Shown: in pieces, positions 641 through 17,299 of the stretch
Layout: each line of letters begins with the position of its first letter
Numbering within the stretch: the first letter of the stretch is position 1
Source: a virus
IMG/VR virus record: IMGVR_UViG_3300027759_000318
Location: 1-29,163 of that record
Length of the DNA: 29,163 nucleotides
Direction: 5' to 3' (one strand)
Position numbers and translations under genes: made by a program
Notes under the pieces: generated by a model
Database searches by the model: none
The model's input: the letters and a program-made list of their open reading frames with translations, nothing else
Told to the model about the DNA's origin: nothing

Positions 641-712
641 AGCTAGTGACAAGATTTGAACTTGCGACCTATGGTTTACAAAACCATTGCACTACCACTG
701 TGCTACACTAGC
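641..712 (-). tRNA. tRNA-Thr (anticodon UGU)
   Basis: A cloverleaf folds on the minus strand. The acceptor stem pairs GCTAGTG with CACTAGC, the D stem GCAC with GTGC and the anticodon stem ATGGT with ACCAT around the loop TTTGTAA, giving anticodon TGT at 680-678. The T arm pairs GCAAG with CTTGT around TTCAAAT. The discriminator is U at 641 and no CCA is encoded. It would read ACA codons, which are favoured in an AT-rich phage. It sits alone between the small membrane-protein gene and the helicase promoter. Confidence 0.93.
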
Positions 713-1928: not shown

Positions 1929-2813
1929 TCAGCATAAAGATATAATCCATTTAAGGATATTAAAGTTGATCCTTTTTCTGTATAATCCATTTTTCATTGT
2001 GGACTTAAATGATGTAAGATAAAAATCATTTGTTTCAGTTCTCCACTCATTTATAAATGAATTAACTTTATCAATATCCAATACTCTTGGTGAATGAAAC
2101 AATGAATAATTCCTAGAAGTATGTTTTAGATATTTTTCTTTATCAAAACTATTCAGATCATTGTGAATATGAATATTTCTTCCTTTTGTAGTATCAATAG
2201 CACACAAAACATAATTGCCATGCGAAACATTAAAAGAAAGATTTGATTTCACCGTTTGTGGTGCATTTTCTTTAATTTGTTTTCCATTCACATAAAGAGT
2301 TGTGCCTTTTACTTTTGATACAAAATATGCAACACCTACAGGAACATCAGTATCAGAAAAAACTTCTTTATCTAACTTATCCCAAGCAAGTAATCTGTCT
2401 TGAAATAAGTTTGTATTGTAAAAAGTTGAAGGAATAATTGCTGCAACATATTCACAATTATCCAATATCAATTTCAAACAATCCAAATACAAATCTTGAT
2501 ATTTAATTGACACATTAAGTTTTTGTCTTGATACTGTAGTTTTTGCAAGATATGGTGGATTTGTAATACACACACTATATCCTGTAGGAAAATCTTTAAT
2601 TGTATCTTGTTTGATGATATTATCCAATTTTGGATCAATATCATATCCAACCCAATCTTCATTAAGATAGGAATATAATAGTCCAGCACCTGCAAATGGT
2701 TCAAGAACTTTAGTGTTCTTTAATCTCAAACTATTCCAAAGTAAAAAAGCATCAGATCCCAAGAAAGGATCTGATGTTGTGTAAAATTGACCTAATAATT
2801 GTTTAGTTGCCAA
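1929..2813 (-). CDS. DNA N6-adenine methyltransferase (gamma-type)
   Basis: Transfers a methyl group from SAM to adenine in DNA. 294 residues. The N-terminal GQFYTTSDPF matches the GQ(F/Y)(F/Y)T element of N6-adenine methyltransferases. Motif I is VLEPFAGAGLL (about residue 36) and the catalytic motif IV is NPPY (about residue 86). The C-terminal ~130 residues would hold target recognition and carry no motif I know. The start overlaps the upstream putative nuclease gene by 11 bases, the arrangement of a restriction-modification pair, so it probably protects phage DNA from that partner as well as from host nucleases. Recognition sequence unknown. The C-terminus is Lys/Ile-rich and AT-rich. Confidence 0.9.
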   Translation of the reverse strand: MATKQLLGQFYTTSDPFLGSDAFLLWNSLRLKNTKVLEPFAGAGLLYSYLNEDWVGYDIDPKLDNIIKQDTIKDFPTGYSVCITNPPYLAKTTVSRQKLNVSIKYQDLYLDCLKLILDNCEYVAAIIPSTFYNTNLFQDRLLAWDKLDKEVFSDTDVPVGVAYFVSKVKGTTLYVNGKQIKENAPQTVKSNLSFNVSHGNYVLCAIDTTKGRNIHIHNDLNSFDKEKYLKHTSRNYSLFHSPRVLDIDKVNSFINEWRTETNDFYLTSFKSTMKNGLYRKRINFNILKWIISLC

Positions 2814-3483
2814 TTAACTTCTCCTGAAACTCAATATGATTTACTACCCAGATATTATCTGTTTGTTTTTGTTTTAGAATACCAAATTCTCTCCCATCAA
2901 TCAACATAACATAGATTTTATCAGGTTCTCCATATTGTTTTGCCCAATCAATATATTGATTGATTTCATGAAGAACATTATCTTGGTGTCCACCGTCTCC
3001 AATTACAATTTTTGCAAAGATATATCCACTTTTGGGACCATTAAAAATACCATCAACAGACTTAAGAGCATCAACATCTTTATTTAGATTTTGTTTTTTG
3101 AACTCTTTATTGGACAACATTTGACCATTCTTGCATGGACGATATTCATTCACTCCACAAGAACGGATGTTAAATTTATATTCTTTCATTGCATTTGAAA
3201 TTCCATCAATTACAAATGCTTCATCTTTTTTTCCTTGACGAGTAGCATTTTTTGCAATCGCAACTGCAACAGTTTTGCTATAAATGATACTATTTGAACA
3301 CTCTGTCAAAAAATCATCATAATCAATTTCAAGTTCATTCAGCAATCTATCAACTGCTTTAATGTTTGCATTTTTTTCCAAATTTGAATAAGAAGGTGAA
3401 TTGCAATATAATTCTTGTGCAATCATTAAGTTGTTATATTTCTGACGTTCATTACGAAGGTCAGAAACATTAACGGAAAACAT
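2803..3483 (-). CDS. Putative type II restriction endonuclease
   Basis: 226 residues. I do not recognise it firmly. Visible features: an N-terminal helical region, the segment AIAKNATRQGKKDEAFVIDG (about residues 77-96), which resembles the SRQGTKDE-type segment I recall from some restriction enzymes, and a C-terminal part with FAKIVIGDGGHQDNV followed by an E-rich helix and YVMLIDGREF. The GGHQDNV block also looks restriction-enzyme-like. It directly precedes and overlaps the adenine methyltransferase gene, which is the strongest support. A canonical PD-(D/E)xK triad is not clear by eye. Alternatives are a methyltransferase accessory protein or a phage DNA-binding protein. Confidence 0.55.
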   Translation of the reverse strand: MFSVNVSDLRNERQKYNNLMIAQELYCNSPSYSNLEKNANIKAVDRLLNELEIDYDDFLTECSNSIIYSKTVAVAIAKNATRQGKKDEAFVIDGISNAMKEYKFNIRSCGVNEYRPCKNGQMLSNKEFKKQNLNKDVDALKSVDGIFNGPKSGYIFAKIVIGDGGHQDNVLHEINQYIDWAKQYGEPDKIYVMLIDGREFGILKQKQTDNIWVVNHIEFQEKLIGN

Positions 3484-3513: not shown

Positions 3514-3550
3514 GCAGAGTTTAGACCCTGTGCCCGTTTAGTGTGCCAGT

Positions 3551-13193: not shown

Positions 13194-14036
13194 TCAGATA
13201 ATCACCGAAGCATTATATCGGACTTCATCAAAGGTATACTCTTTGACGATTTCACCATTCTCAAACACAGTCTCAAGAACTTCTTCTGCATCAGTCCTAC
13301 CTTCTAGGTCAGTAAAATAACCTTCATCATTACGATAGAGGGTTACCCGCCCCTTCTTAGATTCCTTACCCATATCGGTAATAGGACTCTTGTAGACATC
13401 ACGTTGCTCTCCGTTAACTTCAATAGAAGAACACTTCATAGCAAACTTTTGAGTATCTCGGTCAATACTTTGAAGTAGTTTACCGCCCTGACCGAAAGCG
13501 ATATTGTCTGCCGAGTATTCAGCAGTCATTGCCCGATAAAGAATACGGTCAATCGTATCTTGAGTAATACCATCACCTTGAATTACACGAACGTGATTAA
13601 GAACTTTAAATCCTTTCTCATTTATCGTGTGTCCGTAGTGACTATCAAGAATCTTAAGGCATTCTACTACAACTTCAGGAGGATATCCACTATCAGGGCG
13701 AACTACAAGAGTTGCACCGGAGTTGATTACATCATCCTTCAGCACAGTGCCCCACATATGGCAGGCATCGTAAATGTTATAACTATCACTTACGCAAGCA
13801 AATAGAGCACCGGGTTTGCCGTAGAGTTTTACCATATTACGGTAAGAATCTTCTTCACCCGTTCTACCCCAAGAAGTCACGGTGCTGTGTTCCATAGCAG
13901 GAATAGAGAATCCTGCCATATCAATATTGTAGTATTCTTTACCATAAAGCAAAGCACTTACCGTATCAGTTCCCTGAAAGTTTACCAGGTGTGCTAGACC
14001 ACCAATACCAGCAGACTCAAAGGAAGAAACTCCTCG
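13194..14036 (-). CDS. nadV: Nicotinamide phosphoribosyltransferase, 3' exon
   Basis: Residues 178-457 of the spliced enzyme, which makes NMN from nicotinamide and PRPP. Exon 2 starts exactly at RGVSSFESAGIGGLAHLVNF. Key residues by analogy with human NAMPT: Arg178 (start of the exon; R196 equivalent), His227 in PAMEHSTVTSWG (H247), Arg290 and Asp292 in VVRPDSG (R311, D313), and the phosphate-binding FGQGGKLLQ. All are present, so the enzyme should be active once spliced. The open frame extends past 14036 into the intron; those residues are not part of the enzyme. Terminator at 13145-13172. Confidence 0.95.
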   Translation of the reverse strand, partial: RGVSSFESAGIGGLAHLVNFQGTDTVSALLYGKEYYNIDMAGFSIPAMEHSTVTSWGRTGEEDSYRNMVKLYGKPGALFACVSDSYNIYDACHMWGTVLKDDVINSGATLVVRPDSGYPPEVVVECLKILDSHYGHTINEKGFKVLNHVRVIQGDGITQDTIDRILYRAMTAEYSADNIAFGQGGKLLQSIDRDTQKFAMKCSSIEVNGEQRDVYKSPITDMGKESKKGRVTLYRNDEGYFTDLEGRTDAEEVLETVFENGEIVKEYTFDEVRYNASVII

Positions 14037-14963
14037 CGGAGAATATTCAGGTATGTTCGCTAAACATACCCCGTTTATATTCTTTATAAACCATAGAAAC
14101 CATAGATTCGGAGCATTTATAAAAGTTAGCAACTTCTTTTAATGATTTTCCTGAATATCTCATCAGTGCCATTTCAAGTCTTAAGTTGTTATCAAATACT
14201 CTTCTTTTTTTGGTATTCTTAACTGTACCTATTTTATTCAGTATATCCCACATAGTGTTTAATGGAGTATTATACTTATTGGCAAAGTCCTTTACCGTGT
14301 AGTTTCCTTCATTAAACACTAATGTGAGTTTATCTGGGTCTCCGACATAACTTTTGTTTGCCTGAGAATATCTAATGTTTTCAGAAACAGACATCCACTC
14401 TAAGTTATCAATATGATTATTTAAAGTGTTTTCGTCTATATGATTTACAGTTAGATTTTTGTGATTAGAATTGTATTTAAAGGTTAAACATACTAATCTA
14501 TGAATAGAAAAGGTTTTTCGATTTTTATTTAAATCTTTTAACCCAACTCTCTCATACTCACAACCGTTTCCTTTTCTTATAGAAGTTTTTAGGAACTTGT
14601 TGGTTTTATGAGAAAATAGTCTACCATCTTCAGAGATTGAATAATCTTTAAATGATTCTAATGTTGGTACAGTTTCTAGTGGTTTTAACATAAATACTTC
14701 ACCATTTTGGTCTGGATGTAAATATTTATGCTGAATATAAACCGCTTTATTTTTCAATAAAGATTGGACCATATCTTACGATACATAGTATCGCCTTTGC
14801 GCTTCCACTCGCTTGAGTGTACTCTACTCAGTGTTATTTGTAAATAACCTTTTCGATGGTCTCTGAACCTTACTACTAAAAATAGTAGTCTTGGATGCTG
14901 ATTTCCATATTGCCTAAGCAACTTAGGGGTTCCAGCAGTTCACAAAGTTAGGTGCCCGAGTTA
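14037..14963 (-). ncRNA. Group I self-splicing intron in nadV (927 nt)
   Basis: Exon 1 ends GGUGCU and the intron guide GGCACC pairs with it, leaving the required U-G pair at the 5' site (U at 14964). Just before the guide, CUCG pairs with the first four exon-2 bases CGAG (P10). The last intron base is G (14037). Core elements: a P-like GAACTGCTGGAA near 14932-14943, Q-like AATCAGCATCC (14893-14903), R GGTTCAGAGACCATC (14855-14869) and S AAGATATGGTCC (14766-14777), with P7 pairing GACCAT to ATGGTC. This is a subgroup IA-like layout. Splicing restores FGA-RGVSS of the NAMPT active site. Confidence 0.95.
14047..14691 (-). CDS. Intron-encoded HNH homing endonuclease (NUMOD4-HNH type)
   Basis: Cuts intronless nadV alleles so that the intron is copied in. 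About 214 residues from the ATG at 14691 (MLKPLETVPTLESFKDYSIS), preceded by GGTGA. The ATG at 14772 lies inside the intron core and is less likely. Domain order: NUMOD4-like (DYSISEDGRLFSHKTNKFLK), HNH (HRLVCLTF, LTVNHIDENTLNNHIDNLEW), then two helical DNA-binding repeats (YTVKDFANKYNTPLNTMWDI and LKEVANFYKCSESMVSMVYK). AT-rich. The stop lies 10 bases before the intron end. Confidence 0.92.
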   Translation of the reverse strand: MLKPLETVPTLESFKDYSISEDGRLFSHKTNKFLKTSIRKGNGCEYERVGLKDLNKNRKTFSIHRLVCLTFKYNSNHKNLTVNHIDENTLNNHIDNLEWMSVSENIRYSQANKSYVGDPDKLTLVFNEGNYTVKDFANKYNTPLNTMWDILNKIGTVKNTKKRRVFDNNLRLEMALMRYSGKSLKEVANFYKCSESMVSMVYKEYKRGMFSEHT

Positions 14964-15494
14964 AGCACCGAAATCGTGAAGTTTGAACTCAATCGTTCTG
15001 GGGTCTCCAGTTTTCACCAAGTAATCGTGAATAATCCTCTTGCTCTCATAGGAGTTGGTAGAAACCGTAGTTCCATACCAAATTGCCCGAAGAAGAGCAG
15101 TCTCAACATAACTTGTTAACCAAGCACATTGAGGGTCAGTGTTCTCAACAGTAGCAAGAACATTCTTCACAGGAATTACAGAACCTTCAGGAACTGCTTT
15201 GATGCGAATAGGCAACTTACCACTATATTCACGAAGAATATATTCCCAACCTTCACGATTGAAAGGTTCTCCGTGTCCCCCAGCAATCAGTTCAGCAAAA
15301 TCAATATCTTCTTGAGTAATAGGATTAGAAAGATACTCCTTTAGGAAGATTTGAAAACCGAAGAAAACAGTTTGTTTCCAACTACCTCCACGACTTTCAA
15401 CATAAGAATATACATTCGTAGTCCCTTCGGGATACTGATTGAATTGAGAAAACTTGTAAGAATCTGTGTTTGTAATAATCGTTTTGTTAATCAT
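14964..15494 (-). CDS. nadV: Nicotinamide phosphoribosyltransferase, 5' exon
   Basis: Residues 1-177 of NadV. Starts MINKTIITNTDSYKFSQFNQ, where NTDSYKFS matches the conserved N-terminus of the NAMPT/NadV family, and ends IEFKLHDFGA just before the intron. The total spliced length of 457 residues is normal for bacterial and phage NadV. Without splicing, translation would stop at the TAA that begins the intron and give an inactive fragment. The start codon lies in a hairpin with the ribosome-binding site in its loop (15492-15512). Last gene of the NAD operon. Confidence 0.96.
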
Positions 15495-15764: not shown

Positions 15765-16280
15765 TTATTGTTGGTATTCTACCACAGTTACGTCAGCATA
15801 GCAAGCAACATCTTCTGAGAACTTTTCAATCATCTTGGAAATCCTGCTCCAATCACCACCAGCAAGTCCAGCACCGATTTGGGGGAATCCATAGTGAGGA
15901 CGTTTTTTTGGCGTCACAAATCCTTCTTTAGGGGCATAACTTTGAATAATAAGTTCTGTAGTATAATTCAAAAACCTTTGGAATGCATCATACTCAAAAA
16001 CATCCTTTTCGTGACTCCAATAATATTGAGTGTAGGCATTCTTAACTATAAATAAATGATTTGTTGTTGGTGATTTAACAATCACTTGACTGGATGTTCC
16101 CAATTTATTCTTATCACCGAACTCAGTTTGCCTATCAGTTTCTTCTACTATAGGATAACGGTCTGCAAGTTGTTTTGCAATACCACCTCCCATAGCGTGA
16201 AAACAATTACACCCGTGAACGATAACATCAAACTCACCTTGTTCTGCAAGTTTGATTAGGTCTCCTTTAATGATTTTCAT
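15765..16280 (-). CDS. Macro-domain protein (ADP-ribose-1''-phosphatase / Appr-1-p type)
   Basis: 171 residues binding ADP-ribose or its derivatives. FDVIVHGCNCFHAMGGGIAK (about residues 18-37) is the ligand loop with the Asn and GGG of macro domains; YGFPQIGAGLAGGDW (about 129-143) is the second phosphate-binding loop. Related enzymes remove phosphate from ADP-ribose-1''-phosphate or remove ADP-ribose from proteins or nucleic acids. The ATG overlaps the nadM stop (TAATG). Next to nadM and nadV it probably recycles or neutralises products of NAD cleavage; the exact reaction is inference. Confidence 0.9.
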   Translation of the reverse strand: MKIIKGDLIKLAEQGEFDVIVHGCNCFHAMGGGIAKQLADRYPIVEETDRQTEFGDKNKLGTSSQVIVKSPTTNHLFIVKNAYTQYYWSHEKDVFEYDAFQRFLNYTTELIIQSYAPKEGFVTPKKRPHYGFPQIGAGLAGGDWSRISKMIEKFSEDVACYADVTVVEYQQ

Positions 16281-17299
16281 TATACTCCGGTAAAATAGTT
16301 AATGATTTCGTAGTGGTCTTCAAAGCACTCGTTTGGAGTGATTTTGGAAATTGGAATCCACTTTGCAGATGTAGCATCACTTCCACCCTTCACTTTTGGT
16401 AGTTCACCATTCGGAAGTTTGATGTGGAATGCGTGAGTGATTGTTCTGCCTCGTGTGCTACGTTCAATAGCATCAAAGACTTTTGCTTCTACGATACTAC
16501 CACGAAGAATTGGAGCGGGCACCTTGAGTTGAGTTTCCTCCCTCACTTCCCGTATCATAGCATCCTCTAGGGACTTATCGCTTAAGGCGTCTAGAAACCC
16601 TCCAGGAAGGGCAAGAAGACCCTTTCCAGGCTCTGCCCGACGACGTATCATCAGGATGTGTCCCGACTGCACCAATACCGCATCCACCGTTACAAAGGTT
16701 GGTGGGTAAGGGAAAGCAGCATACTGAGATTTATATTTTTCAACAAAATCAATCTCTCGGAGAATTTGGTCGTAATCCTCTGTCTTAGAAAACTTATTGA
16801 GAAACTCCAGAACTTCTACTGGAATGACACTCTTAATAAAGTTTGGGTTGTAGTCCTCTTTGAAGTAGAGTTTTCGGATTTGAGATGCACTCAGTTCTTC
16901 AATCAAAGGGACTTCAATTAGGTCCCACTGAGGGAACATATCAAGATAGAAAGAAGTCTCATCTTTCTTGTATCCAATAATTCCAACTTTAATGTCTTCA
17001 AAGGGATTGATTTTATTCACAATACTTTGAACTCTAGATACCCAAGCATCATTGTTGTAGATGGTATCTTGAATTGGATGAATGCTATAACTAGCATTTA
17101 CCATCATTAAAGTTTCGTTGATTAAATATTCCCGTTCATCATAAGAGAATGGGTTCTTAAAAGTTCTGGGTTGATTTGCAGACCCCACAATAATCGCAGT
17201 GTGTTCTGCAAGTTCTGTTGCCCGTTTGATAATCTCTAGGTGAGCATTATGGAACGGTTGAAACCGACCAATAAAAACTATTACATCGTATTTTTTCAT
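16280..17299 (-). CDS. nadM: Bifunctional NMN adenylyltransferase / Nudix hydrolase
   Basis: 339 residues. Residues 1-~175 are the NadM-type nucleotidyltransferase that makes NAD from NMN and ATP, with FIGRFQPFHNAHLEIIKRA (about 10-28) holding the HxxH, and LSASQIRKLYF (about 140-150) as the ISxxxIR motif. Residues ~200-339 are a Nudix domain: PGGFLDALSDKSLEDAMIRE followed by VREETQ is the Nudix box, with a one-residue-longer loop and Asp where the first Glu is usual, so activity should be tested. Such fusions (as in cyanobacteria) hydrolyse ADP-ribose. First gene of the NAD operon. Confidence 0.95.
   Translation of the reverse strand: MKKYDVIVFIGRFQPFHNAHLEIIKRATELAEHTAIIVGSANQPRTFKNPFSYDEREYLINETLMMVNASYSIHPIQDTIYNNDAWVSRVQSIVNKINPFEDIKVGIIGYKKDETSFYLDMFPQWDLIEVPLIEELSASQIRKLYFKEDYNPNFIKSVIPVEVLEFLNKFSKTEDYDQILREIDFVEKYKSQYAAFPYPPTFVTVDAVLVQSGHILMIRRRAEPGKGLLALPGGFLDALSDKSLEDAMIREVREETQLKVPAPILRGSIVEAKVFDAIERSTRGRTITHAFHIKLPNGELPKVKGGSDATSAKWIPISKITPNECFEDHYEIINYFTGV

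Follow-up and report, generated by a model that had tools for sequence, protein, structure and literature searches.

The stretch of DNA analysed here (the window; 29,163 nt) comes from a cyanophage-like virus; among named records, those closest to it at the DNA level are from Synechococcus phages, and these matches span only short stretches. Its nadV gene lies on the minus strand from 15494 to 13194 and is divided into two pieces, which were delimited by the joined reading frame, Pfam domains and alignment to empty sites. Exon 1 (14964-15494, minus strand) comprises codons 1-177 and ends in GGTGCT at 14964, and exon 2 (13194-14036, minus strand) comprises codons 178-457 and the stop. Joining 15494-14964 to 14036-13194 yields an uninterrupted NadV of 457 amino acids that contains Pfam NAMPT_N and NAPRTase, i.e., both NAMPT domains. 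The exons are separated by a group I intron of 927 nt (14037-14963, minus strand), which ends in a G (14037) and begins with UAA as its first codon in the nadV frame, so that unspliced nadV mRNA stops after Ala177.

Related phages encode intronless NadV proteins that are 96% (L002, L003 and L004) or 88% (L006) identical to that of the window. In nucleotide alignments, the two exon matches are adjacent in all four alleles, with the break at 14964/14036 (for L006, exact to within one base of alignment slack), a result that locates both splice sites without reference to the fold. A preliminary description of this DNA had placed the intron at 14037-14963 between Ala177 and Arg178, equated Arg178 with human NAMPT R196 and proposed a search for intronless nadV in related phages. 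The joined frame and the empty sites agree exactly with those boundaries and that insertion point, the four empty alleles join the exons at precisely this position, and Arg178 is matched in alignment to residue 196 of NAMPT chains of known structure. The R196 equivalent has a role in nicotinamide binding, and the intron sits in the part of nadV that encodes the active site. From the structure and the empty sites, we infer that splicing would restore full-length NadV.

An Rfam covariance search detected a single group I intron in the window (RF00028, 60.9 bits, E = 2.4e-13; gathering cut-off, 50 bits). The preliminary description had rested on P1, P10, a terminal G and R and S elements forming P7, and had named the lack of a group I core as grounds for rejection; every one of these elements is present in the sequence, and the core scores above the cut-off. 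P1 (14951-14969, minus strand, as for all elements here) pairs exon GGUGCU (14969-14964) with GGCACC (14956-14951), has U.G at the 5' splice site and is invariant in all three intron lineages described below. The intron strand of P10, CUCG (14957-14960), pairs with exon CGAG (14036-14033), and in L089/L334 it reads UUCG with one G.U. Both RF00028 and the lineage alignment support P3 (14947-14943 with 14799-14795), P4 (14937-14932 with 14901-14896), P5 (14927-14919 with 14912-14905) and P7 (GACCAU, 14861-14856, with AUGGUC, 14772-14767), in which one pair is C-G where the Rfam consensus has U-A. The lineage alignment supports P6 (14894-14893 with 14869-14868), P6a (14889-14883 with 14878-14872), P8 (14779-14793) and P9 (14745-14762), which has a GAAA loop, and layout on the lineages places P7.1 (14848-14842 with 14839-14833) and P7.2 (14819-14815 with 14810-14806). 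P2 is absent, and a further hairpin lies shortly 5' of the 3' splice site (14050-14070). The presence of P7.1 and P7.2 points to class IA, and the subgroup is probably IA2, in which these hairpins lie between P7 and P3 and are linked by GUA; here GUA is directly 5' of P7.2 and a longer linker parts the hairpins.

P1, P3-P9, P7.1 and P7.2 were laid out on the three distinct intron lineages, and P10 was inspected visually in these sequences. In the resulting structure test, 99% of cells were paired, compared with 30-47% when the partner was slid. Two-sided compensatory changes were found at four pairs, two in P8 and two in P9, a number limited by there being just three distinct lineages, and the slid controls showed none. 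A chance RNA fold is ruled out by the Rfam E-value together with these controls. Separately, the 3' end of the intron, CUCCG, can pair with exon CGAGGAG (CTCCGCGAGGAG; 14030-14041, minus strand) in all intron-bearing alleles, and this pairing could be either a competitor of P10 or part of the endonuclease target.

In a scan of IMG/VR, 11 contigs had HDFGA with TAA directly after it, and in four of these nadV is interrupted at the same site. These four (L088/L336, L090/L335, L097/L337 and L089/L334) come from other metagenomes and carry the same intron and HNH gene with the same junctions. A search with the HNH alignment recovered the same four contigs and two distant HNH genes, and an intron-core pattern matched those four loci and nowhere else in the scanned collections. 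A loose 3'-junction pattern gave, among the matches listed, no loci beyond those already known apart from L106, which is the missing half of L097. The introns of the relatives score 61-76 bits with RF00028, with L088 and L090 missed at the gathering setting and reaching 75.9 bits with laxer filters. Exon protein identity to the window is approximately 65% for L336, L335 and L337 and approximately 89-91% for L334. Because L335 and L336 hardly differ from each other, the five copies amount to four different phage sequences, and their introns fall into three distinct lineages. Every intron-bearing relative has a joined nadV frame without stops, and P1, P7 and P10 are kept in all of them. The intron pattern had no matches in bacterial genome contigs, none of the DFGA-TAA matches in those contigs was NadV by tblastn, a DFGS-TAA pattern gave no NadV matches in viral contigs, and the distant HNH relatives L082, L083, L338 and L339 had no group I core above the cut-off. 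In a survey of annotated phage records, for which the joining rule could hide introns shorter than approximately 570-700 bases, 1,869 of the 1,895 records matched keep at least 80% of the 140 residues around the site in one place, and the total number of places exceeds the number of records by only one.

The preliminary description had also assigned an HNH endonuclease to the intron interior, and the ORF found there (14047-14691, minus strand; 214 amino acids from a conserved ATG) bears it out, with NUMOD4 and HNH_3 domains that both exceed Pfam cut-offs and matches to I-HmuI (PDB 1u3e, E = 1.2e-8) and phrog_59. The gene shows dN/dS values of 0.12-0.20, which indicate purifying selection. The mechanical ORF reaches 14772, inside P7; in the relatives, the region upstream of the ATG at 14691 contains a stop and is frame-shifted, which makes this ATG the more likely start, and a main start at 14772 is ruled out because the frame there is not open in the relatives. 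The product is predicted to be an I-HmuI-like homing endonuclease that would cut DNA.

The HNH start codon is covered by a hairpin (14687-14732, minus strand; -15.2 kcal/mol, z = -4.7) that is also found in L334 and L336/L337 and thus in every lineage. Within its 5' arm is CATAAATA (14723-14730, minus strand), a candidate phage late promoter that matches the S-PM2 late promoter NATAAATA, which is of the T4-like cyanophage type (PMC2984593). The motif lies 34-38 bases upstream of the HNH start in all lineages, and the coding strand of the 29 kb has a single ATAAATA, compared with approximately five copies expected, although the motif is partly dictated by its pairing with the TATTTATG arm of the hairpin. 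A transcript starting at 14712 is predicted not to form the hairpin. At the level of sequence anatomy, the placement of a late-promoter motif within a conserved hairpin that covers the start corresponds to the I-TevI type, which suggests that CATAAATA may act as a promoter. We consider it somewhat probable that the hairpin and late promoter control the timing of HNH expression, which is the weakest step of the explanation developed below.

We also compared the introns with their flanking exons. L336 and L337 differ by 8.9% in exon 1 (91.1% identical) and by only 3 of 918 nt in the intron (99.67% identical), and they show no difference over the first 50 nt of exon 2. Intron identity that exceeds exon identity is, as sequences go, a signature of homing, and the contrast could partly reflect ordinary phage recombination. 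Between the window and L090, third positions of exon 1 are 47% identical and the ribozyme is 89.6% identical. A tree of 85 NadV proteins places the window together with the empty alleles L002-L004 and shows patchy intron presence; supported branches force three changes, and a single intron clade has an AU p value of 0.034. All intron-bearing alleles have CGAGGAGT directly 3' of the intron, a CGAG start is found in only 7 of 79 empty alleles, with CGTGGTGT in the nearest of the empty alleles, a pattern that fits either co-conversion or adaptation to P10. A site shared by diverged genes, patchy presence and introns more alike than their exons are the marks of a mobile intron, and this intron appears to move between phages. 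Among the empty alleles, L006 has an altered site (~3517-3540; QDFGLRG, GGGCTT/CGC) that would break P1, and this allele is possibly homing-resistant.

Taken together, these results make it highly probable that a single explanation, a mobile group I intron in nadV with splicing, HNH-driven homing and control by a hairpin and late promoter, accounts for the locus, and the intron itself is almost certainly functional and mobile. The RNA would fold into the P1-P10 core, external guanosine would attack just 3' of the U in codon 177, and ligation would then join the exons to encode full-length NadV. The HNH protein would nick or cut nadV alleles that lack the intron, at the site of the conserved nicotinamide-binding motif, and through recombination the recipient nadV would acquire the intron along with short stretches of the flanking exons, a step we infer because the introns are more alike than the exons. 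In the long nadV transcript, the endonuclease start codon would be hidden by the hairpin, and the late promoter within the hairpin would give rise to short late transcripts with the start freed, which would confine the nuclease to late infection.

Other readings of the locus are each unlikely to differing degrees. Splicing might serve as a timing or metabolic switch, such that NAD rebuilding, a proposed counter-defence, depends on excision and the element is kept for a role beyond homing, which we consider unlikely. Slightly less likely still is that the intron splices and no longer moves, with an inactive HNH protein and a distribution that reflects vertical descent with losses. Such an element would be expected to have the intact core and exons observed here, and the three changes on the tree can equal one gain and two losses, but the low dN/dS of the HNH gene, the L336/L337 introns (99.67% identical, as opposed to 91% in exon 1) and the retention of the start-codon hairpin in every lineage all argue for continued mobility.

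That a non-splicing insertion has inactivated nadV in the intron-bearing phages would agree with the stop of unspliced mRNA at UAA. This scenario is very improbable given that both exons are intact, with 96% amino acid identity to empty alleles, that no intron-bearing relative has a stop in the joined frame and that all copies keep P1, P7 and P10. The window is a single metagenomic contig, which raises the prospect of a chimera in which assembly fused nadV to a foreign intron. The probability of this artifact is negligible, and it is already refuted by the four independent contigs, all from other metagenomes, that share the junctions; furthermore, no other locus in the scanned collections matches the intron-core pattern. 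We therefore retain the mobile, splicing intron as the preferred explanation.

The genes upstream of nadV provide context for the interrupted gene. A macro-domain protein (15765-16280, minus strand) matches the ADP-ribose 1''-phosphate phosphatase of PDB 6lfu (E = 5.5e-10) and phrog_335, and Pfam identifies an NMN adenylyltransferase-Nudix protein at 16280-17299. The position of the macro-domain gene between nadV and the adenylyltransferase-Nudix gene suggests an NAD/ADP-ribose island. In Synechococcus phage B23 (Kyanoviridae), the gene order is adenylyltransferase, two hypothetical genes and nadV. Phage NadV/NadM have been proposed to counter NAD-depleting immunity (PMC9503650; NARP2 in PMC12028318). 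Elsewhere in the window are a tRNA-Thr (TGT; 641-712, minus strand) and two overlapping genes (1929-2813 and 2803-3483, minus strand) with matches to a phage DNA methyltransferase family and a type II restriction endonuclease family, which are a candidate phage-borne restriction-modification pair.

The usual hosts of phage group I introns include DNA polymerase, ribonucleotide reductase and terminase genes (PMC3984707). The preliminary description knew of no such intron in an NAD-salvage gene, and likewise our full-text literature search, which had most subscription papers outside its reach, found no published report of a group I intron in nadV. As far as these searches reach, what is new is the host gene and site, and the kind of element is already known. 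With this finding, the known targets of phage group I introns come to include an NAD-salvage gene, one associated with evasion of NAD-depleting immunity, and the five intron-bearing contigs and the near-identical empty alleles offer a ready system to measure homing into a counter-defence gene.

The nearest group I-like DNA (approximately 70-73% identity over 120-170 nt) is found in Bacillus phage vB_BpuM-BpSp beside RNA polymerase beta, in DNA polymerase of Flavobacterium phage FpV21 and in ribonucleotide reductase of a Listeria phage, and none of these stretches is in nadV. In vB_BpuM-BpSp, the intron-core match (L084, ~3001-3167) adjoins the RNA polymerase beta gene and has no annotated intron. 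The I-PfoP3I intron of cyanophage Pf-WMP3 (PMC3428280) likewise belongs to group I and interrupts a gene of a freshwater cyanophage, and it has an HNH gene inside, a UAA start, a 4-bp P10, P7.1/P7.2 and no P2. In contrast to the nadV intron, it resides in the DNA polymerase gene of a T7-like phage, and its ORF starts in P6a and spans P7, whereas the nadV intron ORF comes after P9. I-HmuI of Bacillus phage SPO1 (PDB 1u3e) is the sole solved structure matched by the HNH protein, but it belongs to a DNA polymerase gene and the match covers only residues 43-136 of the mechanical ORF. In the T4 td intron, which encodes I-TevI (PMC2988022), the ribosome-binding site or start is similarly hidden in a hairpin on long transcripts, and a late promoter lets late transcripts escape. 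I-TevI is a GIY-YIG enzyme in the thymidylate synthase gene, whereas here an HNH enzyme lies in nadV. The late-promoter hairpin suggests that T4-style timing control may also serve an HNH intron in cyanophage-like phages.
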